Source: Hymenobacter sp. DG25A (GTDB lineage Bacteria > Bacteroidota > Bacteroidia > Cytophagales > Hymenobacteraceae). From it: 64,000 bases of DNA. The stretch is taken from the NCBI RefSeq assembly GCF_001280305.1, contig NZ_CP012623.1, positions 744,001 through 808,000 of the forward strand, read 5' to 3'. Below the pieces are notes generated by a model. That model saw only the letters and a program-made list of their open reading frames with translations, was not told where the DNA came from and did no database searches. Each line of letters begins with the position of its first letter. The stretch's first letter is position 1. Position numbers and translations under genes: made by a program. Of this stretch, positions 15,922 to 60,580 are shown piece by piece.

Positions 15922-17438
<1,517 letters not shown>

Positions 17439-17846: not shown

Positions 17847-17928
17847 GTAGTGTAACGAGTAAGAAAAAGTAATAAAGAGTGATTAACCTATGGTTAGTCA
17901 CCCGAGCCCTCTCTAGCAATAGAGAGCT

Positions 17929-20833
<2,905 letters not shown>

Positions 20834-20913
20834 GAAATAGCTCAACTCCTTTTTCTTACCCGTTACCTGCGTCAACGATTTGACAGCATACGTTTCACGT
20901 ACTAGCTGACACC

Positions 20914-21027
20914 TTAATGGTGGCTTTAGCACGGGTGTTCACCTCTTCCCATTCCGAACAGAGCAGTTAAGCCCCGTAGCGCCCATGGTACTGCCTTCAC
21001 CGGTGGGAGAGTAGGTCGCCGCCAACC
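20914..21027 (+). rRNA. 5S ribosomal RNA
   Basis: About 114 bases. The terminal stem pairs GGTGGC near 20919 with GCCGCC near the 3' end; the core CCGAACAGAGCAGTTAAGCCC is diagnostic apart from its ends. Boundaries are approximate. Confidence 0.9.
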
Positions 21028-43217: not shown

Positions 43218-43257
43218 AAAAAACAATGCCGCGCCCACCAGCGCGGCATTGTTTTTT
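43218..43257 (+). terminator. Terminator after menA
   Basis: A6CAATGCCGCG pairs with CGCGGCATTGT6 around an 8-base loop. Confidence 0.85.
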
Positions 43258-43620
43258 ATCGGCCCAATTCCGGAATGCAGTCAAGCAAAAAAAGCGGCAT
43301 TAGAGACTGAAAAGGACGGTGCAGATTGTGGCGTAAGTGTATTAAATGGAATGGTGATGTAAGTGCAAAGCCCTTCCTGATATTGCTTTGGCTGATTTTT
43401 GCTTGTATTTCCCACACACAGAGTGTTAAATTTGACTGCTGCCCTTACCAGGTGGCTGCCTGGCTTTTACTCCTTGGATAGTACCAATGGAAAGAGCCAG
43501 TGGCAGCAGCTTACCCGGTAGCGGAACTCCCCTTATTTCCAATCTCTCCTTTGCTGCGGGTGCTTTTTCAGCCTCTGCCCGGGATAGGTTTGCCGTTGCT
43601 AGGTAAAGCACAGTACCGAT
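43258..43620. other. Intergenic region before the polysaccharide locus
   Basis: No convincing gene. A 61-codon open frame on the minus strand (43426-43611) lacks homology, signal peptide or promoter. At 43585-43592 is a TAGGTTTG -7 match, listed separately. The rest shows no strong structure. Confidence 0.4.
43585..43592 (+). promoter_or_regulatory. Possible promoter of the GH5 gene
   Basis: TAGGTTTG fits TAnnTTTG; start predicted near 43599, 22 bases before the ATG. The -33 position lacks TTG, which suits a regulated promoter needing an activator. Confidence 0.4.
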
Positions 43621-45486
43621 ATGGCCTTCCGCTATTGTTTATCTGAAGTTTCATCCAGCTTTCGCCGACGAATAGGTAGTCTTATTGGAGCCTGGCTCCT
43701 GAGCCTGCTGATAGGAAATGCTACCGCCCAGCAATTTCTGCGGGCGCAAGGTCCTGATCTGGTGAATGCCTCCGGCCAGAAAGTAGTGCTGCGGGGCGTA
43801 AACGTGGGCGGCTGGCTGCTGCAGGAAAGCTATATTCTGGGTACTGATACTCTGAATTCACAGGGCCGCATTCAGGCCGCGCTGCTGCGGACCATGTCGC
43901 CTAAGCAAGTGGAGAAATTCTACCACCGCTACCGGGCCCGCTTTGTTTCCAAGGCGGATATTGATTTTCTGGCTGATCAGGGTTTCAATTGTGTGCGCCT
44001 GCCGCTGCACTATGATTTATTCCTGACCCCCAAGCAGCGCCTCACCCGGTTCCGGGCGCTGCAAAACCCCGCTGCCGTTGCTGCCTACGCCGATTCTCTG
44101 GCTGCCTGGAACGACCGCGGCCAACTGTTTACGGCCCGCCAGCTGGATGGCTACCGCTATATAGATGATGTGCTGCGCTGGTGCGGGGCCCGTGGCCTGT
44201 ATGTGGTGCTGGACCTGCACGCAGCCCCCGGCGGCCAGGGCACCGACCGCAACATCAACGATAATATGGTGCCGCTAGACCTCTGGAAGCGCCAGGATGC
44301 CCGCGGCCGCCTGGTGTATCAGGATGCCATTGTGCGCCTATGGGAGCAGCTGGCGGCCCGCTACCGTACCGATGCCCGCGTGGCCATGTATGACCTTATC
44401 AATGAGCCGCATAACCTGAATGCGGCGAATGGCCTGAGTAATGATAACCAGGAGTTGCGGACCCTGTATGTACGGCTGCTGCAAGCCGTGCGGGGCCAGC
44501 AGGACAACCACCTGGTGCTGCTGGAAGGCAACGGCTACGGCAACGAGTACACCAACCTTACGCCTGATAAACTGCCCACCGAGCTGCGCCCCAACCTCGT
44601 GTATAATGCCCACCGCTATTGGTGCTCCAACAGCCCCGATGCCACCGATCCTAATCCCAATCAAATCAACCTGATCCATAACCTAGCGGCTTTCCGCGAC
44701 CAGCACCAGGTGCCCGTTTGGGTGGGCGAAACCGGCGAAAACTCCAACGACTGGTTTGCCACCGCCGTGCAGGGTCTGAACGACCAGAACATCGGCTGGT
44801 GCCACTGGAACCTGAAACGGGTGGATGCCACCAGCAGCCTGTTGCGGGCAAAGCCCTACGGCAGCATTCTAACGGCCGGTGGCCGGAGTAAGCTTTTGCA
44901 GCAGGTAGCATTCCACCATTGCCAAGTAAATAAAGATGTGGTGACGGCTCTTACCCGGCCGGCCGATGCCCGGACCCCCTTTATGGCCCTTCGTATACCG
45001 GGCACCATTCACGCGGTAGATTATGATATGGGCCGCGCCGGCATTGCCTATCAGGATACCTACGCAGCCCGGATAGATTACCGCAATACCGCCCCCGTGA
45101 ACCAGGGAGATGCCTACCGCAACGATGGAGTGGATATTGAACGCACCTCTGATCAGCCATCCAACGGCTATGCGGTGAGTAGCCTGGAACCAGGAGAGTG
45201 GCTGCGCTATACGGTGGAGGTTGCCACGGCCGGGACATATACCCTGCAGGTGGGGCTTAAGCCCGCCGCCACGCCGGGCAGGCTTACTTTCCGGCTGGGT
45301 GATGCCGTAATAGCCACAGCCATGGTGCCGCCGGCCAACGGCGTCCCCACCTGGACTACCATAGCACTGAGCACTTCCCCGCTCCCGGCAGGGCAGCATA
45401 CAGTACAGCTGATGGTAGACCAGCCGGTAGAACAAATAAGCTGGTTGCGGTTCATAGAAGGCAGCTCAACCCCGGCAGTGGAATAA
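43621..45486 (+). CDS. GH5 glycoside hydrolase with C-terminal CBM6-like domain
   Basis: A 621-residue secreted enzyme. Signal peptide about 1-37 (ending ATAQQ), GH5 catalytic domain about 40-430, CBM6-like beta-sandwich about 456-613 (IPGTIHAVDYDMG, then GEWLRYTVEV). The acid/base is E262 in YDLINEPH and the nucleophile E370 in VWVGETGE. The LRGVNVGGWLLQES start of the catalytic domain resembles exo-1,3-beta-glucanases, while CBM6 domains bind beta-glucans or xylan. It is first in the locus and 33 bases before the sensor gene, so probably co-transcribed with it. Cell-surface or secreted action on the polysaccharide is inferred. Confidence 0.9.
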   Translation: MAFRYCLSEVSSSFRRRIGSLIGAWLLSLLIGNATAQQFLRAQGPDLVNASGQKVVLRGVNVGGWLLQESYILGTDTLNSQGRIQAALLRTMSPKQVEKFYHRYRARFVSKADIDFLADQGFNCVRLPLHYDLFLTPKQRLTRFRALQNPAAVAAYADSLAAWNDRGQLFTARQLDGYRYIDDVLRWCGARGLYVVLDLHAAPGGQGTDRNINDNMVPLDLWKRQDARGRLVYQDAIVRLWEQLAARYRTDARVAMYDLINEPHNLNAANGLSNDNQELRTLYVRLLQAVRGQQDNHLVLLEGNGYGNEYTNLTPDKLPTELRPNLVYNAHRYWCSNSPDATDPNPNQINLIHNLAAFRDQHQVPVWVGETGENSNDWFATAVQGLNDQNIGWCHWNLKRVDATSSLLRAKPYGSILTAGGRSKLLQQVAFHHCQVNKDVVTALTRPADARTPFMALRIPGTIHAVDYDMGRAGIAYQDTYAARIDYRNTAPVNQGDAYRNDGVDIERTSDQPSNGYAVSSLEPGEWLRYTVEVATAGTYTLQVGLKPAATPGRLTFRLGDAVIATAMVPPANGVPTWTTIALSTSPLPAGQHTVQLMVDQPVEQISWLRFIEGSSTPAVE

Positions 45487-45519
45487 GCTGAACAGGCATT
45501 TTTGTATCTTGGAAGTCCC

Positions 45520-47496
45520 ATGCACAGCTTTCACCACTTCCTTTCTTCATTCTCGGGGCGCTGGCTTTCCGGTGGCTGGCTGAGCCTGCTGCTTCTGCTG
45601 GTATTAACTCTGGAAAATCCGGTGGCAGCCCAGATAAATCCCCTGCGGGTGCGCACCGGTCTGGAAGAGCTTTATGTGGAACCGGCGTGTTATGGTGTGC
45701 TGGAAGACCCCACTGGTGAGCTTACGCTGGCCCAGGTGCAGCAGCCGGCCAATGCCCGGCGGTTTGTGCGCGGCGATAAAATAGCCACCAACATAGAGCA
45801 TACCAACTCTGCCTATTGGTTGCGGGTGCAGGTGCAGGCGGAGGGGGCAGTGCGCCGGCATTGGTACCTTGAATTGTTTGATTCTCACATCAATGAGGTG
45901 GCCTTCTTCCCGGCCGCCGACCCCACGCTGGTGGTCTATACCGGCGCCGACCTGCCGCTGACGACCCGCAAGCTGCCCTACAAAAACTTCCTGTTTTTTC
46001 TGCCGCTGCAGGCTAATGAAACCCAAACCTATTATCTGCGGCTGAAGTCAACGTCCAAAACCAGCTTCCTGAGTCGGCTCCGCACAGAGCAGTCCTTAGC
46101 CGATCATTTTCAGGCCGAATACGGTCTGTTGGGCGCTTTCTATGGGGTGCTACTGATTATGGTCATCTATAATCTGTGCATTTACCTGTTCATTGGCGAG
46201 CAGACCTACCTGCGCTACGTGCTCTATGTGGGAAGCTGCAGCTTGCTATTTCTGTCTGAAGACGGGTTAGGCTTTCAGTACCTCTGGCCTAATCAGCCCG
46301 AGCTGAACCAAGTGGTTATTCTGGGCTCGCCCATCCTGTTGCTGCTCACTTTCAGCTACTATGCCCGGCAGTTTCTGGATGCCCCGCAGCGACTGCCCCG
46401 CTACGATAAGTGGCTGCGCATTGTGGTGCTGGTAAGTGTGTTCGTCCTTCTGCTGGATGCCGTCTGGCTGCACTTGGGGTGGGGCTTCTGGCTTTACCTG
46501 CTTCCCTATGGCATGTTGTACTATGCCGCTTTCCGGGTATGGCGGATGGGGATGCGGGCCGCCCGCTTTTTCCTGCTAGCGCATGCGCTGGTGGCCCTTA
46601 GTGTGGGCTTCCTGATTTTGCGCAAGCTAGGTATTAACACCTTTACTAATACCATCACGGTGTACAGCATGAATGCGGCCTTCGTGATAGAAGTAGTAGT
46701 GCTATCCTATGCCCTGGGTGAAAAGATCAAGGCCATTAAGGATGCCACCATTCGGGCGCAGGCCAAGCTGGTAAAGCAGCTGCACAAAAAGCATCAGGCC
46801 CAAAACCGGCTGGTAGAGCAGCTGAGGCAGAATCAGGAACTGAAAGACCAGTTGAACACCGAGCTGGAAGGGGAGGTGGCCCGCCGCACCGAGGAACTGC
46901 GCCGGCAGAGTGATACCATCAGTGCGCAAAACCGCGAGTTGCTGCAGGCCAATGGGCTACTGGCCTTGCAGTCAGCTGCCATTGAGAAGCTGAACACCGA
47001 CCTGCAGCGCGACCTGCACCAAAGCCAGACGGCCCGGGTGCTTTCCAAAGAAGTGGATTTTGGGGAGTTCAGCCGCATTTACCCCGATAAGGATGCCTGC
47101 CTGGTGTACTTAGCCGATTTGAAATGGGCGCGGGGCTACCACTGCCGCAAATGTGGGCACGAGAAGTTCTGCGACGGTCGAGAGCCTTATTCGCGCCGTT
47201 GCACGCGGTGCCGCTATGTAGAGTCAGCCACTGCCTACACACTGTTTCAGAAGTGCAAGTTCTCCATTGTGAAGGCCTTGTATGCGGTGTTTCTGATTCA
47301 TACCCATAAAGGCAACTATTCATCGCAGGAATTGTCGCGGGTGCTGGACCTGCGGCAGGCTACCTGCTGGAGCTTTCAGCAGAAAGTATTGGAAGCTATG
47401 CAGCGGCGGCGGCAGGTTCCGGATTATGATGTGAACGAAGGCTGGACCCACGTTCTGCTGGATGACTCCGTGCCGGTAGAGGAGGAGCAGGGATGA
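45520..47496 (+). CDS. 7TMR-DISM membrane sensor fused to an IS1595-transposase-like zinc ribbon
   Basis: A 658-residue chimera. Signal peptide about 1-37. Residues 45-190 form an extracytoplasmic 7TMR-DISM-type sensory domain (NTNSAYWLRVQV-like region, then LELFDSHINEVAFF). About 203-400 carry seven membrane helices. About 405-505 form a long coiled coil. Residues 515-630 match the N-terminal part of IS1595-family transposases: YPDKDACLVYLADLKWARGY, a zinc ribbon C542xxC545 ... C561xxC564, and a helical segment with KGNYSSQELSRVLDLRQATC. No DDE nuclease follows; the protein ends in an acidic tail. I infer a membrane-bound DNA-binding regulator of the flanking glucan genes. M at 45520 is used; a TTG six codons up is possible. 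The gene is in normal codon usage, with no transposon ends around the fusion. Confidence 0.85.
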   Translation: MHSFHHFLSSFSGRWLSGGWLSLLLLLVLTLENPVAAQINPLRVRTGLEELYVEPACYGVLEDPTGELTLAQVQQPANARRFVRGDKIATNIEHTNSAYWLRVQVQAEGAVRRHWYLELFDSHINEVAFFPAADPTLVVYTGADLPLTTRKLPYKNFLFFLPLQANETQTYYLRLKSTSKTSFLSRLRTEQSLADHFQAEYGLLGAFYGVLLIMVIYNLCIYLFIGEQTYLRYVLYVGSCSLLFLSEDGLGFQYLWPNQPELNQVVILGSPILLLLTFSYYARQFLDAPQRLPRYDKWLRIVVLVSVFVLLLDAVWLHLGWGFWLYLLPYGMLYYAAFRVWRMGMRAARFFLLAHALVALSVGFLILRKLGINTFTNTITVYSMNAAFVIEVVVLSYALGEKIKAIKDATIRAQAKLVKQLHKKHQAQNRLVEQLRQNQELKDQLNTELEGEVARRTEELRRQSDTISAQNRELLQANGLLALQSAAIEKLNTDLQRDLHQSQTARVLSKEVDFGEFSRIYPDKDACLVYLADLKWARGYHCRKCGHEKFCDGREPYSRRCTRCRYVESATAYTLFQKCKFSIVKALYAVFLIHTHKGNYSSQELSRVLDLRQATCWSFQQKVLEAMQRRRQVPDYDVNEGWTHVLLDDSVPVEEEQG

Positions 47497-47556
47497 AAAA
47501 GCAGGAAAAGCATACTGCTTAGGATAGTACAGGAAAAAAAAGTAAAAAAATTGGGT

Positions 47557-47576
47557 AAAGGCCGCCTTTTTTTTAT
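47557..47576 (+). terminator. Weak hairpin-plus-T-tract after the sensor gene
   Basis: AAAGG/CCTTT stem with CCG loop followed by eight T. Weak, but followed by an AT-rich, promoter-bearing gap of about 200 bases. Confidence 0.4.
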
Positions 47577-47730
47577 TGTTTTTTAGCCGTGCTACCCACA
47601 GCCAGAAAACGCACCTGGCAAGCCAATTAAAGGAAATAATGGGTAAGTAAGCGTGTGCTATAAGCGTAACGATTTTTTGTGATGTAAACTAAAAAACGCC
47701 GTTTCTGGCTTGATTAAGAGGTTTTAAGGC

Positions 47731-47762
47731 TTGCATTTGCCATACAAGCTCTGGTATATTTG
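47731..47762 (+). promoter_or_regulatory. Promoter of the GH3-SusCD unit
   Basis: TTG (47731-47733), 21-base spacer, TATATTTG (47755-47762); start near 47769, only about 11 bases before the GH3 ATG. The upstream 47577-47730 is AT-rich without a gene and is where a regulator could bind. Confidence 0.7.
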
Positions 47763-47779
47763 GTTGTCCTCACCTACCT

Positions 47780-50260
47780 ATGAAGCCTTCCTTGACTCCC
47801 CACAAGTCAGTGCTTTGGAGTGGTCGCCGGCTTTTGTCGGGCTCCCGCTTCCGCTTGCACACATCTTCCCGGCATCTTGTCGCACTGGCTCTTTGCACTG
47901 GTGGGTTGGAGGCATGCCAGCGGCCAGCCCTTCCGGTTGCTACTACTATTACCGCCAATTCTACTACAACTCCCGTGGCCGCTCCGGCTGCTGCTCCTCA
48001 ATGGAGCCCCCGCGTGCAGCAACTGCTGAGCCAGATGACGCTGGAGGAGAAAATCGGGCAAATGACTCAGCTCGCCAACACCGTTATTAATACAACCGGT
48101 GTACAGCGGGATGTGGTGCTGGATTCCGCCAAGGTAACGGCGCTTATCCGGCAGTTTCATATTGGCTCTTTCCTGAACGGGGAGGCAGTGCCTGCCCGGC
48201 AGTGGCTGGCATATTCTATGGCATTGCAGCGCATTGCCATGCGGGAGTCGCGCCTGCACATCCCTATTATCTACGGCATCGACCATATGCACGGGGCCAG
48301 CTACGTAGCCGGTACCGCCATTTTTCCGCATAACCTCAACCTGGGTGCCTCCTTCAACCCGGAGCTGGCCCGGCAAACGGCCCGCGCCACGGTACTGGAG
48401 TCCGCCGATTTGGGGCACCACTGGGTGTTTGCCCCGGTGCTGGACTTGGGCGTGAATGCCTACTGGCCACGCCTGTACGAAACCTACGGCGAAGACCCCT
48501 TGGTAGCCTCTGCCATGGGCGTAGCCTTTGTGCGGGAGCTGCAGGAAAACAAAGATATCCTTCCTTATAAAGTAGCCGCCTGCGGCAAGCACTTCCTGGG
48601 CTACTCCGACCCACGCAACGGCTGGGACCGGACTAATGCCATGATTTCGGACCAGCGCCTGCAGGAGTTTTTCCGCCCCTCTTTTCAGGCAGCAATGGAT
48701 GCCGGGCTGAAAACCATCATGATCAACTCCGGCGAAATTAACGGCGAGCCGGTGCATGCTTCCAAAGCCATTCTCACGGATTTGCTGCGCACGCAAATGG
48801 GGTTCAAGGGCGTAGCCGTTACCGACTGGGAAGACATCATTCGCCTGGTGCGGGTGCAGAAGGTAGCCGCCGATGAGAAGGAGGCCACCTTTATGGCCGT
48901 GGATGCAGGTGTGGATATGGCCATGACACCCTACACCACCGACTTCTGCCGCCTGGTAAAAGAGCTGGTGCAGGAAGGCCGCCTGACTGAGGAGCGCATC
49001 AACCTTTCCGCAGGCCGCGTGCTGCAGCTGAAGGACGATCTGGGCTTGTTTGAAAACCCCATGCCCCGCGCCGACCGGCTCAACCGCATCGGCGACCCCG
49101 CCCTCAAGCAACAGGCAGTGGCTGCTGCTACGGAAACGTTTGTGTTGCTCAAAAACGAGCAGAACACGCTGCCCTTAAGCAAGGCAAAAGTAAAGCGCCT
49201 GCTGGTTGTAGGGCCTTCGGCTGATTCCCGCGCCAACCTGGCCGGGGGCTGGACGCTGGCCTGGCAGGGCCGCCCTGAAAATGAATACCCGCGCGAGGTG
49301 CAAACGATTGTGGGCGCCCTGCAGCGTGAATATCCGAGTGCAAAGGTGGAAATGGTACCGTACCGCAATGCCAAAGGTCAGCTGCAACTGGCCGGCATTG
49401 CGGCCGCGGCCCGCCGCGCCGATGCCATAGTAGTAGCCATTGGCGAGAAGCCATACACCGAGGGCCTGGGCAACACCAGCGACCTGACGCTGCCCGAAGA
49501 CCAAGTGCAGCTGGTGCAAACCACCCAGGCCAGCGGCCGCCCCACCATACTGGTCGTTATTGGTGGCCGGCCCAGCATCATCCGGGGGGTGGCTGAAAAG
49601 TCGGCGGCCATTATATGGGGCGGGCTGCCGGGCTTTGGTGGGGGAGAGGCCCTGGCTGCGCTGCTGAGTGGCCGGGCCAATTTCAGCGGCAAGCTGCCGT
49701 TCACGTATCCGCAGTTTGCCGGCCACATCTCCAACTACCACCACGACAACAACGAGAATAGCCTGGAGCTGAGTGATTTTGGCGCCGGCTTCGAAAACCG
49801 GGGGGCTAAATTTAAGCCTGCCATGCTCACAGAGTTTGGCCAGGGCCTGAGCTATACTACCTACCAGTACAGTAATCTGCTGCTCTCTGATTCGGTAATC
49901 AGCAGCGCTGGTACGGTACGCGCTACGGTGCGCGTAACCAATACCGGCCAGCAGGCGGGTAAAGAGGCCGTGCTCTGGTTTCTGACGGATGAGGTGGGCC
50001 GCATTGCCCGCCCGGTGCGCTTGCTGAAACATTTTGACAAGCAGGTGTTTACACCTGGACAGAGTCGGGAAATGACTTTTATCATCAACCCCAGACAGCA
50101 CCTGAGTTACCCCGATGCTCAGAGCCGCCCCCAGTTGGAAAATGGCTACTTCACTTTACGCGTAGGCGACCAGACCGCTCGCTTTCGCTACGCGGACCCA
50201 GCGGCCCGCGCTTCTGCTCCGGCTGACCCCACTCCCCGGGCCGGCTCCACTGCCAACTAG
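47780..50260 (+). CDS. GH3 beta-glucosidase
   Basis: An 826-residue GH3 enzyme. N-terminal export signal to about residue 46, with Cys46 in GGLEAC as a possible lipid site (Glu at -2 is unusual). The catalytic TIM barrel (about 75-400) has MTLEEKIGQM and nucleophile D349 in GVAVTDWEDI; the second sandwich domain (about 420-680) and a C-terminal fibronectin-like domain (about 720-800) follow. It releases glucose from the non-reducing ends of beta-1,3- or beta-1,4-glucan oligosaccharides, most likely in the periplasm. It heads the unit that continues with SusC (72 bases downstream). Close to BglX-type beta-glucosidases. Confidence 0.93.
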   Translation: MKPSLTPHKSVLWSGRRLLSGSRFRLHTSSRHLVALALCTGGLEACQRPALPVATTITANSTTTPVAAPAAAPQWSPRVQQLLSQMTLEEKIGQMTQLANTVINTTGVQRDVVLDSAKVTALIRQFHIGSFLNGEAVPARQWLAYSMALQRIAMRESRLHIPIIYGIDHMHGASYVAGTAIFPHNLNLGASFNPELARQTARATVLESADLGHHWVFAPVLDLGVNAYWPRLYETYGEDPLVASAMGVAFVRELQENKDILPYKVAACGKHFLGYSDPRNGWDRTNAMISDQRLQEFFRPSFQAAMDAGLKTIMINSGEINGEPVHASKAILTDLLRTQMGFKGVAVTDWEDIIRLVRVQKVAADEKEATFMAVDAGVDMAMTPYTTDFCRLVKELVQEGRLTEERINLSAGRVLQLKDDLGLFENPMPRADRLNRIGDPALKQQAVAAATETFVLLKNEQNTLPLSKAKVKRLLVVGPSADSRANLAGGWTLAWQGRPENEYPREVQTIVGALQREYPSAKVEMVPYRNAKGQLQLAGIAAAARRADAIVVAIGEKPYTEGLGNTSDLTLPEDQVQLVQTTQASGRPTILVVIGGRPSIIRGVAEKSAAIIWGGLPGFGGGEALAALLSGRANFSGKLPFTYPQFAGHISNYHHDNNENSLELSDFGAGFENRGAKFKPAMLTEFGQGLSYTTYQYSNLLLSDSVISSAGTVRATVRVTNTGQQAGKEAVLWFLTDEVGRIARPVRLLKHFDKQVFTPGQSREMTFIINPRQHLSYPDAQSRPQLENGYFTLRVGDQTARFRYADPAARASAPADPTPRAGSTAN

Positions 50261-50332: not shown

Positions 50333-53300
50333 ATGTCCCAACCCTCTACTTCTTATCTGCTGCTCCGGCGAGCCGCTCTGGTGGCCGCCTGCGGGTGGCC
50401 CACCCTGGTAGTGCCGGCTCAGGCAGCGCTACCTGCCAGCCTAAGCCCTGCGGCGCTGGTGCAGGCATCGGCGGCCGATGTGACCGTGTCCGGACGCGTA
50501 ACCCAGCCAAATGGTGACGGGTTGCCCGGCGTAACGATTGTGGTAAAAGGTACCACCCGTGGTACCTCTACCAACTCTAACGGCAACTTCACAATTGTGG
50601 CGCCGGAAGGCAGCACCCTTATTTTCAGCTACGTAGGCTATCAGCGCCAGGAGGTGCCTATTACGGGCGCTAACGCCAGCTTGAACGTGACGCTTCTAGA
50701 AGACCTCCAGGCGCTGAACGAAGTAGTAGTAGTGGGTTACGGTACGCAGGAGCGTACTTCGGTAACCGGTGCCGTGTCTTCGATTTCCGGAAAAGATATT
50801 GCCTCGCAGCCAGTAGCTGATCCTACGCAGGCCTTGCAGGGCCGCGCTGCCGGTGTTACGGTAACGCAAAACTCCGGGGCACCCGGGGGAGCCGGCGGTA
50901 CGTCGGTTCGGGTACGTGGTATCACCTCTGCCGGCAATAACTCGCCGCTGTATGTAATTGATGGCTATCCGCTGCCTTCCAGCGACGCCAACGGCAACAG
51001 CATCGAGAACCAGCTGAACGCCATCAACCCCAATGATATTGAGAGCATTGATGTGCTGAAGGATGCTTCGGCCACGGCTATCTATGGTCTGCGGGCCGCC
51101 AACGGTGTGGTAATCATCACCACCAAGCGCGGTAAGGCCGGTACTTCCAATGTAAACCTGGACGTGTACCGTGGGGTGCAGGAAGTTTGGCGCAAGCTGG
51201 ATTTGCTGAACGCCGAAGAGTATGCCGTCATCAACAACGAAAGCCGCCTAGCCAAAGGCGACGCCACACTGCCGGCCCTGCGCAACCCGCAGGCCCTGGG
51301 CGAAGGCACCGATTGGCAGGACCAGGTATTCCGTAAGGCTGCTATTCAGAGCTACAACCTGTCGGCTTCGGGCGGCAGCGAGAAAGCGCGCTACTCGGTA
51401 TCGGGGGGCTATTTCAAGCAGGATGGTACGCTGAACGGCTCCCACTTCGACCGGTTTACGCTGCGCGTGAACGGGGATGTGCAGCTGAACCGGGTACTGA
51501 AAGTAGGCAACAGCCTGTCCTTAACGCACCTCACTGACCGGCAGGTAGACACCGGCGGCAGCGAGTTTGGCGTGCTCAGCAACGTGTTGCAGGCCCCGCC
51601 TACCATTCCGGTATACAACGAGAATGGCTCCTGGTATGAGCCCACGGCCACGGCCGACAACTATGTGGAGCCTAACCCGGTGATGCAGTCCCTGATTACC
51701 AAGTCGAAGTTTGTGCGCAACCGCGCCCTTACTACGTTCTTTGCTGAGCTGGAGCCGCTGAAAGGCCTGCGCTTCCGCACCAACATTGGCGCCGACCTGG
51801 TTTTCGACAACTACAACGCCTTCACGCCTTCTGCCGGTGCTAACTCACCGCGCTACTCGGTGGCAGGTGCTGCGGCCTACAACAACTACAACCCCAGCTA
51901 CCTGATTGAAAACACGCTGACCTATGATCGGCTGTTTGCTGACAAGCACCAGGTAACGGTGCTGGTGGGCCAGTCGGCGCAGGAGTTCAACTACAGCACG
52001 CTGTCGGCGGGCCGTTCCGGCTACCTCAACAACGATCTGCAGCAAATCAATAACGGCCCCATTAATGCGGCCCTCGGCAACGGCGGCACCAGCAGCCAGA
52101 ACCGTCTGGCCAGCTACTTTGGCCGCGTTAACTACGATTACGCCGGCAAGTATCTGCTCTCGGCCACCCTGCGCCGCGATGGCAGTTCAGCCTTTGCGCT
52201 GGGTGAGAAATTCGGTTGGTTCCCCGGCGTTTCGGCCGGCTGGAGACTTTCGGAAGAGAATTTCGTGAAAGATATCAGCGCCATCAGCAACCTGAAGCTG
52301 CGCGCAGGCTGGGGCCGGGTAGGTAACCCCCTGAACGCTGGTCAGTTTGCTTATCTGGCGGGTATAAACTCGGGCATTACCTATGTATTTGGTCCCGATG
52401 GAACCGTAGTGGCCGGTGCTGCTCCTACGCGTCAGCAGAACACGCAGCTGAAGTGGGAAAACAACGAGCAGACCAACTTGGGCGTTGACCTGGGCTTGTG
52501 GGGTAACCGCTTGGAGACCAGCATTGACGTATACAGCCGCAAGTCGCCGAATCTGATCAGCTCCGTACCGCCTTCCCTGGTGTCCGGTACTTATGAGTCA
52601 GTGCCGACCAACGCCATTTCGGCCGTGAACAAGGGTCTGGACGTGTCTATTACCACCCGTAACTACGTTGGCGGCGAATCCGGCTTTAACTGGACCAGCT
52701 CCCTGATTTTCTCTACGTACAAGAGCAACATTGAAAACCTGGGCACGGCCGTTCCTTTCAATGGCCTCAATAACCGCCTGGGCTCACCCATTGTGCGCTA
52801 CGACCAAGGCCAGCCCTTCGGCGCCTTCTACGGCTACGTAGCCGATGGCCTGTTCCAGACCCAAGAAGAAGTAACCAGCCACGCTACCCAGCAAACAGGT
52901 ACGGCTCCCGGCGACATCCGCTTCAAGGATATTAACAACGACGGCGTTATCAACGATGCCGACCGTACCTTCATCGGCAACCCGAACCCGGACTTCACCT
53001 ACGGCCTGAACAACACGCTGACCTGGAAGGGTTTTGATCTAAACCTGTTCATTCAGGGCTCGCAGGGCAATGATATCTACAACCTGAACCGTTTCTACAC
53101 GGAAGGTGGCCTGTATAGCAACGGTAACTCCAGCACCCGCGTGCTGGGCCGCTGGACCGGTGCCGGTACCAGCAACGATGTGCCGCGTGCCATTGCCGGC
53201 GACCCCAACCAGAACCTGCGCGTAAGCAGCTACTTCATCGAAGACGGCTCTTACCTGCGCATCAAAACGCTGACGCTGGGCTACAACCTGCCCAAAACGG

Positions 53301-53470
53301 TACTCAGCCGCCTGGCTTCCCAGCAAATGCGGGTGTACGTGTCGGCGCAGAACCTGCTGACGCTGACCAAGTACACGGGCTTCGACCCGGAACTGGGACA
53401 GGGCGGCGTAGACCGGGGTATCTATCCTCAGTCGCGCGTGCTGCTGGCCGGTCTGAACATCGGTTTCTAA
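50333..53470 (+). CDS. SusC/RagA-type TonB-dependent outer membrane transporter
   Basis: A 1045-residue TonB-linked receptor. Signal peptide about 1-32, carboxypeptidase-regulatory-like beta-sandwich about 50-125 (VSGRVTQPNGDGLPGVTI), the SusC signature LNEVVVVGYGTQ near 128-138 and plug (about 140-260), then a 22-strand barrel ending VLLAGLNIGF. It imports oligosaccharides across the outer membrane under TonB power together with the SusD lipoprotein encoded 60 bases downstream. An N-terminal sigma-factor-interaction (STN) domain is absent, so it is not of the transducing type. Confidence 0.95.
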   Translation: MSQPSTSYLLLRRAALVAACGWPTLVVPAQAALPASLSPAALVQASAADVTVSGRVTQPNGDGLPGVTIVVKGTTRGTSTNSNGNFTIVAPEGSTLIFSYVGYQRQEVPITGANASLNVTLLEDLQALNEVVVVGYGTQERTSVTGAVSSISGKDIASQPVADPTQALQGRAAGVTVTQNSGAPGGAGGTSVRVRGITSAGNNSPLYVIDGYPLPSSDANGNSIENQLNAINPNDIESIDVLKDASATAIYGLRAANGVVIITTKRGKAGTSNVNLDVYRGVQEVWRKLDLLNAEEYAVINNESRLAKGDATLPALRNPQALGEGTDWQDQVFRKAAIQSYNLSASGGSEKARYSVSGGYFKQDGTLNGSHFDRFTLRVNGDVQLNRVLKVGNSLSLTHLTDRQVDTGGSEFGVLSNVLQAPPTIPVYNENGSWYEPTATADNYVEPNPVMQSLITKSKFVRNRALTTFFAELEPLKGLRFRTNIGADLVFDNYNAFTPSAGANSPRYSVAGAAAYNNYNPSYLIENTLTYDRLFADKHQVTVLVGQSAQEFNYSTLSAGRSGYLNNDLQQINNGPINAALGNGGTSSQNRLASYFGRVNYDYAGKYLLSATLRRDGSSAFALGEKFGWFPGVSAGWRLSEENFVKDISAISNLKLRAGWGRVGNPLNAGQFAYLAGINSGITYVFGPDGTVVAGAAPTRQQNTQLKWENNEQTNLGVDLGLWGNRLETSIDVYSRKSPNLISSVPPSLVSGTYESVPTNAISAVNKGLDVSITTRNYVGGESGFNWTSSLIFSTYKSNIENLGTAVPFNGLNNRLGSPIVRYDQGQPFGAFYGYVADGLFQTQEEVTSHATQQTGTAPGDIRFKDINNDGVINDADRTFIGNPNPDFTYGLNNTLTWKGFDLNLFIQGSQGNDIYNLNRFYTEGGLYSNGNSSTRVLGRWTGAGTSNDVPRAIAGDPNQNLRVSSYFIEDGSYLRIKTLTLGYNLPKTVLSRLASQQMRVYVSAQNLLTLTKYTGFDPELGQGGVDRGIYPQSRVLLAGLNIGF

Positions 53471-53530: not shown

Positions 53531-55024
53531 ATGAATACTTCCAAAAATGTACTTGTCGCGATGTTGCTGGCAGGAATGCTGGCAGGCTGCGGCGAGAGCT
53601 TCCTGGATGAGTCGCCGCGCGACTCTGTAACCACCGAAAACTTTTACAAAACAGAAACCGACGCCATTCTGGCCGTAAATGCCGCGTATGCTGAGCTAAG
53701 CCGGGGTGGCCAGTACAACTACGCCCTGTGGGGTATCGGCGACATCATGTCGGACAACTCCTTCACCGGTGGTGGGGGCGGTGGCGACGGCGCCGAGCAG
53801 CAGCAGCTCGACAACTTCAACATCCCCACCAGCAACCCGCTGACAACCCGCCTGTGGGGTGGCTGCTACGTGGGCATTGGGCGCGCCAACCTAGTGCTGC
53901 AGAAAGTGCCCGGCATTGCCAACATGAACGAAGGCATCCGGAAGCGCTGCCTGGGCGAAGCCCAGTTCCTGCGGGCCAAGTATTACTTTGACCTGGTGCG
54001 TGCCTACGGCGACGTGCCGCTGGTAACCGTACCGCCTACCAGCCCCGCCGACGTGGCCATTCCACGCACCCCGGCTGAGCAGGTATACGCGCAGATTGAA
54101 AAGGATCTGACGGATGCCATCGGCAACCTGCCGGAGAGCTATAGCGGTGTTGATCTGGGCCGTGCTACCAAGTGGGCCGCCACCGGCCTGCTGGCTAAAG
54201 TGCACATCACGCGCGGCAACAAAGCGGCGGCTGCCCAACGGGCACTGGAAGTCATTAATGGCAGCGGCAAAAGCCTGTGGGCCAACTATGGCGACAACTT
54301 CAAAGTAGCCAACGAGAACGGCAAAGAGTCCATTTTCGAGGTGCAGTACATCAATGGTAAGAATGAGTATACCTTCGATGGTCTGGGCTTTGTAGGCAAT
54401 GAGTTCTTTGGGCCCCGCGGTATGGGCCTGGTGCCCCAGGGCGGCTACGGCTTCAACATTCCGGAGAAAGAGTTTGTAGACGGCTACGAGGATGGCGACA
54501 AGCGCCGCGACGTAACCATCTGGAAGCCCGGCGACGCGTATCCGGCCGGTAGTGCCGTTGCTGCGCAGCCCGCGCAGCTGGTAGGCTCGCCCTTCGGCTT
54601 CAACGTGAAGAAATGGTTTGTAGGCAAGGTGAACACCAACGTGTGGGATTCGCCGCTCAACATTCCGGTTCTGCGCCTGGCCGAAGTGTACCTGATTTAT
54701 GCTGAAGCCGTGGGCCCTACGGCCGATGGCTTCAAGTACCTGAACATGGTGCGCCGCCGCGCTTTCGGTGAGGCTATTGATGCGCCTTCTTCCCACGACC
54801 TGACGGCCGCCAACACCTCCAATTTCACGGATGCCGTGATACGGGAGCGTCGGTATGAGTTGGCTTTCGAAGACGACCGTTGGTTTGACCTCAAGCGTAC
54901 CGGCAAGCTGCTGACTTTGCCCGCACTGCAGGCCAAAGGCGTAAAAGCCTTCAACGTGCTGCTGCCCATTCCGCAGTCCGAGCGTGATGCCAATCCTAAC
55001 CTTACTCAAAACCCCGGCTACTAA
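53531..55024 (+). CDS. SusD/RagB-type surface glycan-binding lipoprotein
   Basis: A 497-residue lipoprotein, lipobox LAGC with Cys20. The N-terminal half contains tetratricopeptide-like helices (ENFYKTETDAILAVNAAYAE), the C-terminal half the RagB/SusD region ending FDLKRTGKLLT and the terminal LPIPQSERDANPNLTQNPGY, the family ending. It caps the SusC transporter and binds the glycan at the cell surface. Between SusC and a PKD lipoprotein, 16 bases from the latter. Confidence 0.95.
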   Translation: MNTSKNVLVAMLLAGMLAGCGESFLDESPRDSVTTENFYKTETDAILAVNAAYAELSRGGQYNYALWGIGDIMSDNSFTGGGGGGDGAEQQQLDNFNIPTSNPLTTRLWGGCYVGIGRANLVLQKVPGIANMNEGIRKRCLGEAQFLRAKYYFDLVRAYGDVPLVTVPPTSPADVAIPRTPAEQVYAQIEKDLTDAIGNLPESYSGVDLGRATKWAATGLLAKVHITRGNKAAAAQRALEVINGSGKSLWANYGDNFKVANENGKESIFEVQYINGKNEYTFDGLGFVGNEFFGPRGMGLVPQGGYGFNIPEKEFVDGYEDGDKRRDVTIWKPGDAYPAGSAVAAQPAQLVGSPFGFNVKKWFVGKVNTNVWDSPLNIPVLRLAEVYLIYAEAVGPTADGFKYLNMVRRRAFGEAIDAPSSHDLTAANTSNFTDAVIRERRYELAFEDDRWFDLKRTGKLLTLPALQAKGVKAFNVLLPIPQSERDANPNLTQNPGY

Positions 55025-55040: not shown

Positions 55041-56312
55041 ATGATGACTCAGACATTTCACCATATCACGGGGCGGCGACTATTGGCGCTGCTCGTGGCG
55101 GCTCCTCTGCTGCTGGCTTCCTGCGAAAAGGAAGACTATAAGCTGGAAGGCCCCGTACCTACCGCCGATTTTTCGGCCCAGGTAAACACCACTGAATACC
55201 CTTCGGTGGTAACCTTCACCAACAACAGCAAAGACGCTTTCCTGTACCAGTGGGACTTCGGCGACGGTTCGCCGCTGGCCTCAGGCCAGAACGTGACGCA
55301 CACCTACAAGCGCCCCGGCACCTTTAAGGTGCAGCTGATTACGGCAGGTAGGGGCGGTACGGGTGTATCGCAGCAGAAAGACGTCGTTATTCCTTCTGCT
55401 TCCGATAATACGGCCTTCGTGGGCCTCACCAACAGCACCACCACCGGCAACCGCGCCTGGGTGCTCACAAATAAGGCCGGCGCCATTACCAAGCTGGCGG
55501 CCAACGGCACCACGGTATTATCATCGTCGGCGGCGGGCAGCCTGCCCGATTGCCAGGCAGATGATGAAGTGACGTTTACCAGCACCTTCACCTACAGCTA
55601 CAATGCCGGCGACGGCACGTACGTGAACGGCGCCTGCGGCACGGCTAAAACCACCACGTCGGACTTCATTTTCCGCCCAACCGGCACCACCGGCGGGCAG
55701 ATTGTGCTGAAGCGCAACGGTGCCTTTATTGGCGTGGCTGATTCCGTGAAGAACAAGACCTACGACATCCTGGAAGCGTCTGCTACCACGCTGAAGCTGC
55801 GGGGCGAAAACCCGGACGGCACCTTCACGGTGCTCACCTACATGCCCCAGCTTTCTGCTCTGGACCGCGTGAAGCAGCTCCTGACCGGTGGCAGCTCCAA
55901 AACCTGGTTGCTGCAGAATGATGTGGATGCCCCCATTATTGTAGGCACCGAGGGCAACCCCGGTCAGTACTTCCCAGGCGTGAAAGCCGGTGAGCTGCCT
56001 ACCTGCCAGTCAGATGATGAGTACACCTTCTCCGATGCCAACGTATTCACCTACAACGCCAAGGATCAAACCTTCGTGGCCGGTGACTACACCTGCCAGG
56101 CGCCGCGTTCCGGCACTTCCAGCTTCAGCTTCGGCCCTGCCGACGGCGCCGGTCTGGCCCAGTTTGAGTTCAGCAAGCCCGGTACCTTCATTGGCGTAAC
56201 CGATGCCCCGGACCTGACCTACCGGATTATCTCCATTGATGAAACCCATATGGTGCTGCGGGCTGGCAAGCCTAGCGGTACGGTGTTCCAGATGAAGCTG
56301 GTGGCGAAATAA
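55041..56312 (+). CDS. PKD-domain surface glycan-binding lipoprotein with duplicated module
   Basis: A 423-residue lipoprotein, lipobox LASC with Cys28. One PKD domain (about 40-115) with the diagnostic YQWDFGDGSP and HTYKRPGTF. Residues about 134-275 and 284-423 are two copies of one module, each having a W.L.N start, a C..DDE.TF segment, YNA.D.T, a second Cys, FIGV.D and a closing LR....GT. The second Cys in each may form a disulfide. Placement after SusCD is where SusE/SusF-type or PKD-laminarin-binding proteins sit, so it most likely helps bind the glycan at the surface. Not homologous, as far as I can see, to SusE. Confidence 0.85.
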   Translation: MMTQTFHHITGRRLLALLVAAPLLLASCEKEDYKLEGPVPTADFSAQVNTTEYPSVVTFTNNSKDAFLYQWDFGDGSPLASGQNVTHTYKRPGTFKVQLITAGRGGTGVSQQKDVVIPSASDNTAFVGLTNSTTTGNRAWVLTNKAGAITKLAANGTTVLSSSAAGSLPDCQADDEVTFTSTFTYSYNAGDGTYVNGACGTAKTTTSDFIFRPTGTTGGQIVLKRNGAFIGVADSVKNKTYDILEASATTLKLRGENPDGTFTVLTYMPQLSALDRVKQLLTGGSSKTWLLQNDVDAPIIVGTEGNPGQYFPGVKAGELPTCQSDDEYTFSDANVFTYNAKDQTFVAGDYTCQAPRSGTSSFSFGPADGAGLAQFEFSKPGTFIGVTDAPDLTYRIISIDETHMVLRAGKPSGTVFQMKLVAK

Positions 56313-56340: not shown

Positions 56341-57216
56341 ATGACAGTACCATTCAATATTACCCTGCGGGGACTATGGATTGGGGCCAGCGTTTCGCTG
56401 GCCCTGACTACCCTGGCCTGCACGGAAGAGAAAGCCAAAGTGGTTCCTAAGCCCACGCCCAAACCCACCGAGGTAAATGCCGAAGCCCGCGACTACGCTC
56501 AGTACACGGAGCTGAAGTGGAGCGACGAGTTTGACGCCGGCGCGCTGGACCAAACCAAGTGGACGTATGAGCTGGGCGGCGGCGGCTGGGGTAACAACGA
56601 GCTGCAGGCCTACACCAATTCCAACGAAAATACCTTCCTCACGGGCGGTAATCTGGTTATTGAAGCCAAACAGCAACAAAGCGGCTCCAACCCGTACACC
56701 TCGGCCCGCCTAATCACCAAAGGCAAGCAGAGCTTTACGTTCGGCCGCATTGATGTGCGCGCCAAGCTGCCGAAAGGCAAAGGCGTGTGGCCCGCCATCT
56801 GGATGATGGGCTCCAATATTGACCAGGTAAGCTGGCCGGCCTGCGGGGAAATTGACATTATGGAGCTGCGCGGCAGTCAGCCCAGCAAGGTGCTGTCTAC
56901 CATGCACTTTGGCAATACCCCCTCTGACCACCGCTATAAATCTGGTCCGGAGCAGGTGCTGGCTTCCGGCACTTATGCTGATGACTTTCACATCTACAGC
57001 GTAGTGCGCAGCCAGGATCAGATTCGGGTGTTTCTGGATGGCAAGCAGTTCTTCACCTTCACGCCCTCGGATGCCTCGCCGTACCCGTTCAACAATCCGT
57101 TCTTCATGATTCTGAACGTGGCTGTTGGGGGAAACTTTGATGGCAACCCCGATGCCAGCACGCAGTTTCCGCAGCGGATGACCGTGGATTACGTTCGTTT
57201 TTATCAATACAAATAA
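56341..57216 (+). CDS. GH16 endo-beta-glucanase lipoprotein (first)
   Basis: A 291-residue lipoprotein (lipobox-like TLAC, Cys27). The GH16 jelly-roll domain (about 52-291) contains the catalytic EIDIME motif with E170 (nucleophile), D172 and E175 (acid/base), and the flanking WPAIWMMG strand. The extra Met in EIDIME (rather than EIDVE-type) is typical of laminarinases and agarase-like GH16 members. It likely cuts internal beta-1,3(-1,4) bonds at the cell surface. Thirteen bases before the CBM9-like gene, so one transcript. Confidence 0.92.
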   Translation: MTVPFNITLRGLWIGASVSLALTTLACTEEKAKVVPKPTPKPTEVNAEARDYAQYTELKWSDEFDAGALDQTKWTYELGGGGWGNNELQAYTNSNENTFLTGGNLVIEAKQQQSGSNPYTSARLITKGKQSFTFGRIDVRAKLPKGKGVWPAIWMMGSNIDQVSWPACGEIDIMELRGSQPSKVLSTMHFGNTPSDHRYKSGPEQVLASGTYADDFHIYSVVRSQDQIRVFLDGKQFFTFTPSDASPYPFNNPFFMILNVAVGGNFDGNPDASTQFPQRMTVDYVRFYQYK

Positions 57217-57229: not shown

Positions 57230-58048
57230 GTGAGCGACCGTAACCGGCTGGGAGAAGGACCAAGCGTAGAGGAAAAGCATGGCGGCTTCACCCGACTGGC
57301 CTGGTTACTGGCCATAGCTTTGTTGGGCACAGGAGCCTATATGCTGCTTCGGCAGCCGCCCCGCCCGGAGTATCGGGCGCCGCTGGCGGCCCAGGCCCCA
57401 GTCATTGACGGGCAGTCCACCGACGCCTGCTGGGCGGCGGCGCCCTGGCGCCCGCTGGACCAGCGCTGGGTAGGTGCGGCCACCAGCCCCACCGATTTTT
57501 CAGGCCGCTACAAAGTGGTCTGGACGCCGGAGCGCCTGTATGTGCTGGCTGAAATCACCGATGACGTAGTGCGTGATACGCACCCCGACCCGCTGGTAAC
57601 CTGGTGGGATGATGACTGCCTGGAAATTTTTGTGGATCCGGACCAATCCGGCGGCGACCATCAGTACAACTACAATGCCTGGGCCTATCACGTGGCCCTT
57701 AATGGCCATGTAGTAGATATGGGTACCGATCAGAAAGGCCATCTGTATGATGACCACGTGCAAAGCAGCCACACCCAGCGCGGCAACATCACCACCTGGG
57801 AAACGTCGGTGGCTTTGTACCCCGATACCTACGACGAAAAGAACCCGGCCGCTAACCAGCCGCAGACTATCCGCGCCAATACGCCCATCGGCTTTGCCCT
57901 GGCTTATTGCGACAACGATGCCAGCGTGGAGCGGGAAAACTTCTTCGGGAGTGTGCCCGTGGCCGGCGCCGATAAAAACCGGGGCTGGATTGATGCATCC
58001 ATTTTTGGAACGCTGCTGCCGGTTGAGTCGGCAGCGCCTAAGCCATAA
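57230..58048 (+). CDS. CBM9-like carbohydrate-binding protein with membrane anchor
   Basis: A 272-residue protein beginning with GTG. Residues 22-40 form a hydrophobic anchor or uncleaved signal; there is no lipobox Cys. Residues about 50-265 resemble the CBM9-like sugar-binding fold: APVIDGQSTDACWAAAPW, then VVWTPERLYVLAEITD and DDDCLEIFVDPDQSGGDH. Such proteins bind oligosaccharide ends and occur in Bacteroidota glucan loci. It is tightly packed between two GH16 genes (13 and 8 bases). Binding to the products of those enzymes is inferred. Confidence 0.82.
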   Translation: MSDRNRLGEGPSVEEKHGGFTRLAWLLAIALLGTGAYMLLRQPPRPEYRAPLAAQAPVIDGQSTDACWAAAPWRPLDQRWVGAATSPTDFSGRYKVVWTPERLYVLAEITDDVVRDTHPDPLVTWWDDDCLEIFVDPDQSGGDHQYNYNAWAYHVALNGHVVDMGTDQKGHLYDDHVQSSHTQRGNITTWETSVALYPDTYDEKNPAANQPQTIRANTPIGFALAYCDNDASVERENFFGSVPVAGADKNRGWIDASIFGTLLPVESAAPKP

Positions 58049-58056: not shown

Positions 58057-58953
58057 ATGACTCCTTCTCCGCTTTCTGACTGGCTTTCGCGCTCCGCGAT
58101 ACTGGCTGCCGGCCTCCTGCTGGGGGCCTGCAACTCGGCCCGCCCCCCGCAAACCACCGCCGATGCCTCTGCTGCGGCTACCTCTGCCAAGCCACGCTAC
58201 AGCTTTAAGGAGCTGGCCTGGCAGGATGAGTTCAACAAGCCCGGCCTGCCTGATTCCACCAAATGGACTTACGATGTAGGCGGCAAGGGCTGGGGTAACC
58301 ACGAGCTGCAGTACTATACCAAAGCCCGCCTGGAAAACGCCCGCGTAGAAAACGGCAACCTCATTATTGAGGCCCGGCGCGAGCAGCTCTTTCCCGGCAA
58401 CCCGTACACCTCCACGCGGCTGGTGTCGCGCGGTGGCCCGGGCAAGGGGGGAAGCCAGACGTATGGCCGCTTTGAGATACGTGCCCAGCTGCCCGCTGCG
58501 CGCGGCACCTGGCCCGCCATCTGGATGCTGCCCGACGACTGGAAGTACGGCGACAAAAGCTGGCCCGATAACGGCGAGATTGACATTATGGAGTACGTAG
58601 GCTACCGCCCCGGCGTGGTGCAGGCCTCTACGCACTGCCACAAATACTACTTCCGCACCAATAACCAGAAAACCGATTCCGTTCGGGTGGAAGATGCTAC
58701 TACGGCCTTTCACGTGTACGCCCTGGAGTGGACGCCCGAAACCATCACGGCTTTCGTGGATGACAAGCCCTACTTCACCAGCACCAACGAGCACACGGGC
58801 TGGGAAGCCTGGCCCTGGGACCACCCGTTCCATTTGCTGCTGAATGTGGCCGTGGGCGGCGACTGGGGTGGCAAGATGGGGGTGGATGAAACCGCCTTTC
58901 CCCAGCGGATGCTGGTGGATTATGTTCGGTTTTATCGGCTGAAAGCCAATTAA
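58057..58953 (+). CDS. GH16 endo-beta-glucanase lipoprotein (second)
   Basis: A 298-residue lipoprotein (lipobox LGAC, Cys25). The catalytic motif EIDIME gives E174, D176 and E179. About half identical in layout to the first GH16 but with a longer mid-region (GGSQTYGRFEIRAQLPAARG, WMLPDDWKYG), so a diverged duplicate or separate recruit. Together the two probably differ in substrate length or linkage preference. It ends the tight cluster: the next gene starts 181 bases later, after a stretch that may hold a promoter. Confidence 0.92.
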   Translation: MTPSPLSDWLSRSAILAAGLLLGACNSARPPQTTADASAAATSAKPRYSFKELAWQDEFNKPGLPDSTKWTYDVGGKGWGNHELQYYTKARLENARVENGNLIIEARREQLFPGNPYTSTRLVSRGGPGKGGSQTYGRFEIRAQLPAARGTWPAIWMLPDDWKYGDKSWPDNGEIDIMEYVGYRPGVVQASTHCHKYYFRTNNQKTDSVRVEDATTAFHVYALEWTPETITAFVDDKPYFTSTNEHTGWEAWPWDHPFHLLLNVAVGGDWGGKMGVDETAFPQRMLVDYVRFYRLKAN

Positions 58954-59134: not shown

Positions 59135-60580
59135 ATGATGAAAACTTCTACGCGAATTCTCCTGACAACCGGCCTGCTGGGTCTGCTGGGCCACGCCGCC
59201 GCCGCCCAAACGCTGTATGATGATTTTGAGCAGGTGCGGCTGGTAGCTTATCCCAATGTACAGGGCATGCTGACGCAGGATGCGGCTAACCCCGCTAAGA
59301 ACACTGTGAATGGCAGCACTACGGTAGCCAAATTTGAACGGGCCGCCGCGGAGCAATATGCCACCATCAGCATTGCACTGGCCGATGCCTCGCGCCGACT
59401 CCAGGATGTAACGCCCTATACCACCGGGACCAAGAAAATCAGCCTAAGCTTTTATAGCCCGATGGCCGGGGTGCCGGTGCAGCTGGTGCTGCAGAACAAG
59501 GCCAAGGCGGCGGCCACGCCTTATGTGTACCCCCAGGGCAACTACGCGGGCACCTTCAACGCCACCACTACGGTAGCCAATGCCTGGGAAACCCTCACGT
59601 TCACCTTCACGCCGGGGCCGGGTAGCAGCGACGCCAGCGTGACGGCCACGGACATCGACCAGCTGGCCCTGCTCATTAACCTGGGCAATAAGGATGGCAG
59701 CACCTACTATTTCGACGACCTGAAAGGCCCGGAGCTGACCAACGGCACGCCCGTTGACCCCAAAGTGCCCTTCCTGTACGATAATTTCGAAGACACCCGG
59801 CTGGTGCTGTACCCCGCCGTAGAAGGCGACTTTGAGCAGGGAGCCGCCAACCCGGCCAGCGGCAACGGTAACAACAGCCCCAAAGTGGGTAAATACACCC
59901 GGGCTGCCGGGGCGCAGTATGCCGTTATTACCATGGCTCCCAATGGCCCCAAACGGTTTGCCGACGTGAGCAGCTACCTGGCCGGCACTTCCAAAATTTC
60001 GATGAAATTCTACAGCCCGAAGGCCGATGTTCCGGTACAGCTGGTGCTGCAGGACAAAACCAAAGCGGCTACCGGCTACCCCAATGGTAATCTGGGCGGC
60101 ACTTTCGATGCCAAAACCACTGTGGCTAATGCCTGGCAAACCCTCACGTTCCAATATAACCCCGGCGCCAACGACCCCACGGTTCTGCCCACCGACGTTG
60201 ACATGCTGGTGATGCTGATTGCCCCCGGCACGAACAATGGCGATACGTACTATTTCGACGACCTGACGGGGCCTGCCTTCGCGGTAGTGCAGAGCTCCAA
60301 AGCTTCCCGGGCTTCCGTAGGGGCATTGGCTCCGCTGTGGCCCAACCCGGCCAACACCCAAAGCCACTTAGAGTTTCAGCTCGTGAAAGCCGGGGCCGTA
60401 ACCGTTTCCGTTTTTGATTTGCAGGGCCGGCGCATAGCCACCATCCTGCAGCACGCCCATCGGGTTGCCGGCCGCAACCTAGTATATATCCCCACGGCCC
60501 AGCTGGCGCCCGGTCTATACCAGGTAAGGCTGGAAATGGCCGGACAAACGGTTAGCCGTCCCTTCAGCGTGCAACACTAG
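59135..60580 (+). CDS. Secreted two-module protein with T9SS C-terminal sorting domain
   Basis: A 481-residue protein. Signal peptide about 1-24. Two homologous modules, about 26-200 and 212-378, each starting (L/F)YD(D/N)FE and containing GTTKISLSFYSP / GTSKISMKFYSP, VPVQLVLQ(N/D)K and TYYFDDL; this is the layout of a jelly-roll carbohydrate-binding-like domain. The C-terminal 80 residues (from LWPNPANTQS) with VSVFDLQGRRI and GLYQVRLEMAGQTVSRPF form a typical Por/type-A T9SS sorting domain, so it is secreted or surface-attached. Likely a secreted glucan-binding protein; no catalytic motif seen. Either of two adjacent Met codons may be the start. Confidence 0.82.
   Translation: MMKTSTRILLTTGLLGLLGHAAAAQTLYDDFEQVRLVAYPNVQGMLTQDAANPAKNTVNGSTTVAKFERAAAEQYATISIALADASRRLQDVTPYTTGTKKISLSFYSPMAGVPVQLVLQNKAKAAATPYVYPQGNYAGTFNATTTVANAWETLTFTFTPGPGSSDASVTATDIDQLALLINLGNKDGSTYYFDDLKGPELTNGTPVDPKVPFLYDNFEDTRLVLYPAVEGDFEQGAANPASGNGNNSPKVGKYTRAAGAQYAVITMAPNGPKRFADVSSYLAGTSKISMKFYSPKADVPVQLVLQDKTKAATGYPNGNLGGTFDAKTTVANAWQTLTFQYNPGANDPTVLPTDVDMLVMLIAPGTNNGDTYYFDDLTGPAFAVVQSSKASRASVGALAPLWPNPANTQSHLEFQLVKAGAVTVSVFDLQGRRIATILQHAHRVAGRNLVYIPTAQLAPGLYQVRLEMAGQTVSRPFSVQH

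Follow-up and report, generated by a model that had tools for sequence, protein, structure and literature searches.

The window, a 64,000-nucleotide stretch of the genome of Hymenobacter sp. DG25A, encodes a 658-residue 7TMR-DISM receptor whose output module is a zinc ribbon–helix-turn-helix head of the IS1595 transposase type (gene at 45520–47496, plus strand). The receptor is very probably a one-component transcription regulator anchored in the membrane, which would control the surrounding beta-glucan utilisation locus, probably as an activator, by way of a candidate operator, element B1. The evidence, all of it read from sequence, comprises the domain architecture, the homology of the head to a transposase, the absence of a nuclease, the linkage to SusC and SusD, the joint loss of the head and the locus, and a promoter element conserved in sequence and spacing. 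The linkage, the co-loss, and the promoter element support the original prediction of a locus regulator; DNA binding, the ligand, activation, and autoregulation are inferred.

The receptor gene is a single open frame with an ATG at 45520 and a stop at 47496. A frame error joining two genes is ruled out, because the same fusion occurs in 52 of the 61 genomes of the genus. The periplasmic 7TMR-DISMED2 sensor domain (45697–46068, residues 60–183, Pfam E 1.5e-27), which contains strands in the structure model, precedes the seven-helix membrane domain 7TMR-DISM_7TM (PF07695; 46120–46722, residues 201–401, E 1.5e-41), and an intracellular module (residues 510–632) follows, as in other 7TMR-DISM proteins. 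The membrane domain is connected to this module by a long signalling helix or coiled coil (46723–47034, residues ~402–505), which agrees with the coiled coil of about 100 residues expected there; the predicted structure has helices at residues 378–474 and 479–504, the second partly with a pLDDT below 50. The receptor is the sole 7TMR-DISM_7TM match in the 3.78-Mb genome (E ≤ 0.001), and its nearest named proteins are from Hymenobacter, order Cytophagales. Its sequence matches among solved chains are to three sensor kinases, one of which is RetS. A Foldseek search of the PDB gave no match at E ≤ 0.001, which counts against the regulator reading.

The head is homologous to the N-terminus of the intact IS1595 transposase P0160, with 65 of 119 residues (55%) identical over residues 510–628 (47047–47403). 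The zinc ribbon (Zn_ribbon_IS1595, PF12760; 47086–47217, residues 523–566) scored 22.8 bits (E 9.2e-5) in the scan of the window, under the cut-off of 25.4, and 27.6 bits in the scan of the genome, where PF12760 has four matches and the receptor alone exceeds the cut-off. Its cysteines are located at the predicted positions, C542, C545, C561, and C564, and are invariant in all 22 sequences of alignment A2, the window included, and all 27 of alignment A1. The helix-turn-helix (47266–47415, residues 583–632) is supported by a structure model of the last 157 residues, with a mean pLDDT of 87.4, and by the NCBIfam family transpos_IS1595, positions 2–57 of 215 of which match residues 579–633 (E 1.7e-7; 31.3 bits against a cut-off of 75 set for the whole transposase). 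Pfam, NCBIfam, and the identity to P0160 thus bear out the claim of a receptor carrying a transposase-derived zinc ribbon followed by an IS1595-like helical segment. Since the helices after the ribbon are also derived from IS1595, the transposase-derived part comprises about 120 residues and is more than the ribbon. Past the helix-turn-helix, a C-terminal tail with a tryptophan is kept in alignment A2 (window residues 636–648; for example GWTHVLLD or GWEELIL). P0160 has no counterpart of this tail, and in the receptor of locus L077 (genome G005) the tail diverges from that of the family in a frameshift-like manner.

P0160 retains its nuclease, as indicated by PF12762 and the sequence VDE/TDKW, and its homology to the receptor ends ahead of this domain. 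The receptor has no Pfam match to the DDE nuclease PF12762 at E ≤ 1, as had been noted from the sequence. Terminal inverted repeats are likewise absent: of the seven short, imperfect inverted repeats in 45200–48000, six have arms within genes, the seventh is an A-run/T-run pair 3′ of the receptor gene, and none looks like an IS end. The IS end of relatives has two weak matches in the window, both away from the receptor gene. In a tree of 119 heads, one branch with support of 100/97 separates 83 long head proteins, three of them with a Reg_prop/Y_Y_Y sensor, and three solo proteins from 16 transposases, 15 degenerate proteins of genome G446, and two other short proteins. That every long protein with the head falls on the same side of this branch fits a single capture with later spread and loss. 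The 119-residue identity and this branch support the proposal, based on sequence comparison, that the head derives from the captured DNA-binding domain of an IS1595-family transposase. The solo proteins that group with the receptors consist of a zinc ribbon and a helix-turn-helix (137–141 residues; L172, positions 1194–1607, P0184, and P0186). The G446 proteins are 15 paralogues of 294–332 residues from loci L156–L170. They have the same head as the receptors, and their body resembles that of IS1595 transposases, except that other residues, for example CEL and TTGW, replace the VDE and TDxW of intact relatives; the two that were tested both match PF12762, one of them under the cut-off. They are apparently nuclease-dead, domesticated transposases and may form a second, independent set of transposase-derived regulators.

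The receptor gene lies, as noted from the sequence, between GH5 and GH3–SusC–SusD genes. By Pfam, a GH5 protein with a CBM6/CBM35-type module (43621–45486) ends 33 bp 5′ of the gene, which is followed by GH3 (47780–50260), a SusC-like TonB receptor (50333–53470), SusD (53531–55024), a PKD-domain protein (55041–56312), a first GH16 (56341–57216), a CBM9-like protein (57230–58048), a second GH16 (58057–58953), and a Por_Secre_tail protein with a weak CBM4_9 match (59135–60580), all on the plus strand. The enzymes point to a beta-glucan as the substrate. Elsewhere in the window, an rRNA operon (15922–21027) contains 16S, two tRNAs, 23S, and 5S.

Receptor matches are found in 52 genus genomes besides this one, and the loci of 40 of them were examined. 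SusC and then SusD, in some loci with GH3 ahead of SusC, follow the receptor gene on the same strand in 39 of the 40, and the genes farther upstream vary, which indicates that the receptor–PUL unit holds together in changing surroundings. In the fortieth, locus L076 of genome G003, a deletion extends from the long helix of the receptor into GH16, so that the head, GH3, SusC, and SusD are gone. A SusD match at E ≤ 1e-60 is present in all 52 genus genomes with the head and in two of the nine without it, G036 and G037, where it is weaker (596 and 546 bits); the hypergeometric probability of this co-occurrence is 8e-8 without correction for kinship. The expectation that homologues would be found near glycan loci holds within the genus but only for a part of the loci in other families, where SusC is one of the next three genes on the receptor's strand in 21 of 73 loci (a raw share). 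The remaining 52 loci, without SusC in the next three genes, count against the regulator reading. Among their 66 immediate neighbours (closed frames of 200–1299 residues) are five GH3, three GH9, and two GH10 proteins, and many neighbours outside the genus, such as PriA, efflux proteins, DUF2339, and PEPC, are unrelated to glycans. Because of this share of SusC adjacency, the description as a PUL regulator does not fit every member of the family.

The candidate operator was identified by aligning 38 promoters (37 loci and the window), which gave the B1 consensus CGTGTGNNNTAAGYGTA. In the window, B1 is CGTGTGCTATAAGCGTA at 47652–47668, and the plus strand also contains a weaker repeat of it, B2, 24 bp downstream (47676–47692), a −33 type element in a block of conserved columns (TTGCATTTGCC, 47731–47741), and a −7 type element 103 bp past the start of B1 (TATATTTG, 47755–47762). 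We take the −33 and −7 elements to form a Bacteroidota-type promoter. All 39 intergenic regions between regulator and PUL contain B1 on the coding strand with at most two mismatches (none, one, and two mismatches in 16, 15, and 8 regions), and in each of them its start lies 101–103 bp upstream of a match to TANN[AT]TTG, the −7 element; these counts are in-sample. The unit downstream begins with GH3 or SusC. Mean ungapped identity between loci is 45% over the 80 bp after B1 and 34% over the 65 bp before it, so that B1 stands out from drifted sequence. The offset of 24 bp to B2 ranks first in 40 main promoters (4.78 of 9, against a mean of 2.58 with standard deviation 0.69) and sixth in 16 GH5-side promoters. 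Upstream of B1 lies element A (TTGTTTTTTA, 47576–47585, plus strand), a 10-mer that may be the T-run of a terminator. Read on the opposite strand as TAAAAAACAA, it is present in 35 of the 39 intergenic regions, 73–77 bp upstream of B1, against a shuffle mean of 0.2; across 20 shuffle sets, no 10-mer had a count above 5. The copy of element A before GH5 (43249–43258, plus strand) is the T-run of a hairpin.

Across the 3.78-Mb genome, the 16-base core of B1 is matched exactly only upstream of the PUL, and four further copies differ from it by a single mismatch. One of the four, at window position 43326, belongs to the B1 element before GH5 (43325–43341, plus strand; two mismatches to the 17-mer and one to the core), which lies 102 bp, start to start, ahead of a −7 type element (TAAATTTG, 43427–43434, plus strand). 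Both regions originally proposed for binding, 47.58–47.78 and 43.3–43.6 kb, thus contain the candidate element. Weak sites elsewhere in the genome are attributable to chance, since matches with at most two mismatches number 65, against 57 for a reversed control. B1 is found within 900 bp 5′ of GH5 in 14 of 20 GH5 loci, with eight other matches in 757 kb on both strands; four of the six remaining loci have a site farther upstream, and L056 and L076 have none. Of 15 GH5-side sites, eight have a −7 match at 102–104 bp, three at 91 bp, which is about one helical turn shorter, and four none at the tested distance. The headless locus L076 has no coding-strand B1 at up to three mismatches in 18 kb and a single three-mismatch match on the opposite strand; before GH5 it keeps, in our reading, at most a decayed remnant of B1.

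A TAAGYG core recurs beside relatives in other families. The 21 other-family regions with SusC downstream contain 16 coding-strand copies in ten regions (shuffle mean 2.6, largest 7, in 300 shuffles) and ten opposite-strand copies in eight, although several of these loci are close kin and most of the sequences had been viewed before counting. The density is 2.54 per kb in the 21 regions and 0.28 per kb in 61 other promoter regions. The right end of P0160-type insertion sequences is AAATGCCTAAGTCAA in seven Snuella sedimenti copies (L217), AAATGCCTAAGTTAA in L215, and, in four UBA10427 copies, AAATGCCTAAGT with CAG or AAG after it; the one left end seen, in L215 at a contig start, is TTGACTTAGGCATTT. 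The seven copies that make up a fourth group have AAATGCCTAATTCAA, and the more distant element of L178 has quite different ends. The related insertion sequences and B1 have only the short TAAGT core in common, and one of the four groups lacks it, so that the link from transposon ends to B1 is suggestive only.

Whole-protein matches at E ≤ 1e-20 are present in 79 of 99 relatives, the genome itself counted, and many of those outside the genus cover the sensor part only. Within the genus, 53 of 61 genomes match the receptor and eight do not; 52 keep the head, and in G003 the match ends at residue 497, ahead of it. The head profile matches in 99 of 241 genomes of the order, with up to 16 matches in one genome, and in 36 of 247 genomes of the phylum. 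Genome G172 has at least ten head matches in frames of 615–655 residues. Outside the order, many frames among the matches listed are transposase-sized (~300–345 residues), and a 650-residue frame in G423 is a receptor with DISMED2, 7TM, and PF12760. In L109, L135, and L136 (997–1068 residues), the same head follows a Reg_prop and Y_Y_Y sensor, a type known from HTCS proteins; the head of L136 was assigned by profile match, with PF12760 absent among the matches listed for it. The L109 gene is directly 5′ of SusC–SusD, and this sensor exchange supports the reading of the receptor as a membrane regulator. We tentatively propose, at somewhat less than even confidence, that an IS1595 head, captured once, gave rise in Cytophagales to a large and portable class of one-component membrane regulators that combine it with two or more types of sensor. 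The head would have kept part of its recognition of transposon ends, in the form of the TAAG core, promoters would have evolved operators resembling those ends, and the head would replace two-component signalling at glycan loci.

In the mechanism that we propose, the signal would be a sugar-loaded protein or a sugar itself (probably an oligosaccharide of beta-1,3-glucan), sensed by the periplasmic DISMED2 domain. The change would pass through the 7TM domain and along the long helix in the cytoplasm to the zinc ribbon–helix-turn-helix head, which would bind B1 and perhaps also the weaker repeat 24 bp downstream. The bound head may then contact RNA polymerase and promote transcription from the GH3/SusC unit and from GH5. 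Where GH5 ends 33 bp 5′ of the regulator gene, as in the window, autoregulation would follow, with the protein increasing its own synthesis.

Architecture and B1 conservation leave the sign of this control unfixed, and the same protein could be a repressor that keeps hold of B1 at the membrane until sugar comes. The position of B1 makes this unlikely: in most promoters it lies 101–104 bp 5′ of the −7 box, and in three GH5 promoters the distance is 91 bp. Activators commonly use such upstream, helically phased sites, whereas repressors that act by blocking do not usually do so; the regulator is probably an activator. It is slightly less likely still that B1 belongs to another DNA-binding protein, such as a global or two-component regulator, with the 7TMR-DISM protein acting indirectly. 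More than one factor could use elements A, B1, and B2, and the binding of B1 by the head is itself deduced, but the genome contains a single exact copy of the core, the TAAGYG core recurs next to relatives in other families, B1 is absent where the head was lost (L076), and Pfam identifies no other transcription regulator in the 19 frames scanned in 36.0–63.7 kb. That the zinc ribbon–helix-turn-helix is the fossil of an IS insertion, now a passenger or a protein-interaction module that plays no part at DNA, is very improbable: the head did originate from an IS-type gene, but its cysteines are invariant across deep divergence, it has spread widely in many copies, and it has been swapped onto another sensor type.

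The module after the seven-helix domain of 7TMR-DISM receptors is usually a histidine kinase, GGDEF, or similar domain. The receptor shares DISMED2, the membrane domain, and the cytoplasmic helix with these proteins (PF07695/PF07696), whereas its 7TM domain is followed by a transposase-derived DNA-binding head. The zinc ribbon and helix-turn-helix are shared with IS1595-family transposases (PF12760 and PF12762, NF033547), from which the receptor differs by the absence of the DDE nuclease and terminal repeats and by its single copy in the genome. The L109 protein resembles the HTCS of Bacteroidota in its sensor and its place beside SusC–SusD, but has an IS1595-type head where the kinase, receiver, and AraC domains stand, none of which is among the matches listed. 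In the window receptor, Pfam detects no histidine kinase, receiver, or AraC helix-turn-helix, so it does not have the composition of an HTCS. CadC/ToxR-type regulators are membrane-anchored one-component DNA binders with the reverse domain order and unrelated DNA-binding and sensor domains. According to the paper on ChiS (PMC8092284), that protein is a sensor in the membrane whose C-terminal domain binds DNA, and the legend of Fig. 5 names 7TMR-DISM among the domains occurring with this DNA-binding domain. The receptor would resemble ChiS as a direct membrane regulator with a C-terminal DNA-binding domain; the ChiS domain is a cryptic helix-turn-helix, proteobacterial and not derived from a transposase, whereas the head here is assigned to IS1595.

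Databases already hold the domain combination, for example as '7TM diverse intracellular signaling domain-containing protein'. Among the open-licence full texts that the searches listed, none describes, as judged by title and start of abstract, this architecture or an IS1595-derived regulator. The new element of this analysis is the candidate operator B1, deduced from promoter alignment. As the head and the operator are small, the main claim can be tested by one binding assay. To our knowledge, glycan-locus regulators in Cytophagales are little described, and the receptors offer a candidate family of such regulators whose operator can be put to the test. They would also be a bacterial example of a signalling receptor that has taken a transposase head as its output module, and one where sequence lets the capture, the exchange of sensors, and the evolution of the operator be traced.
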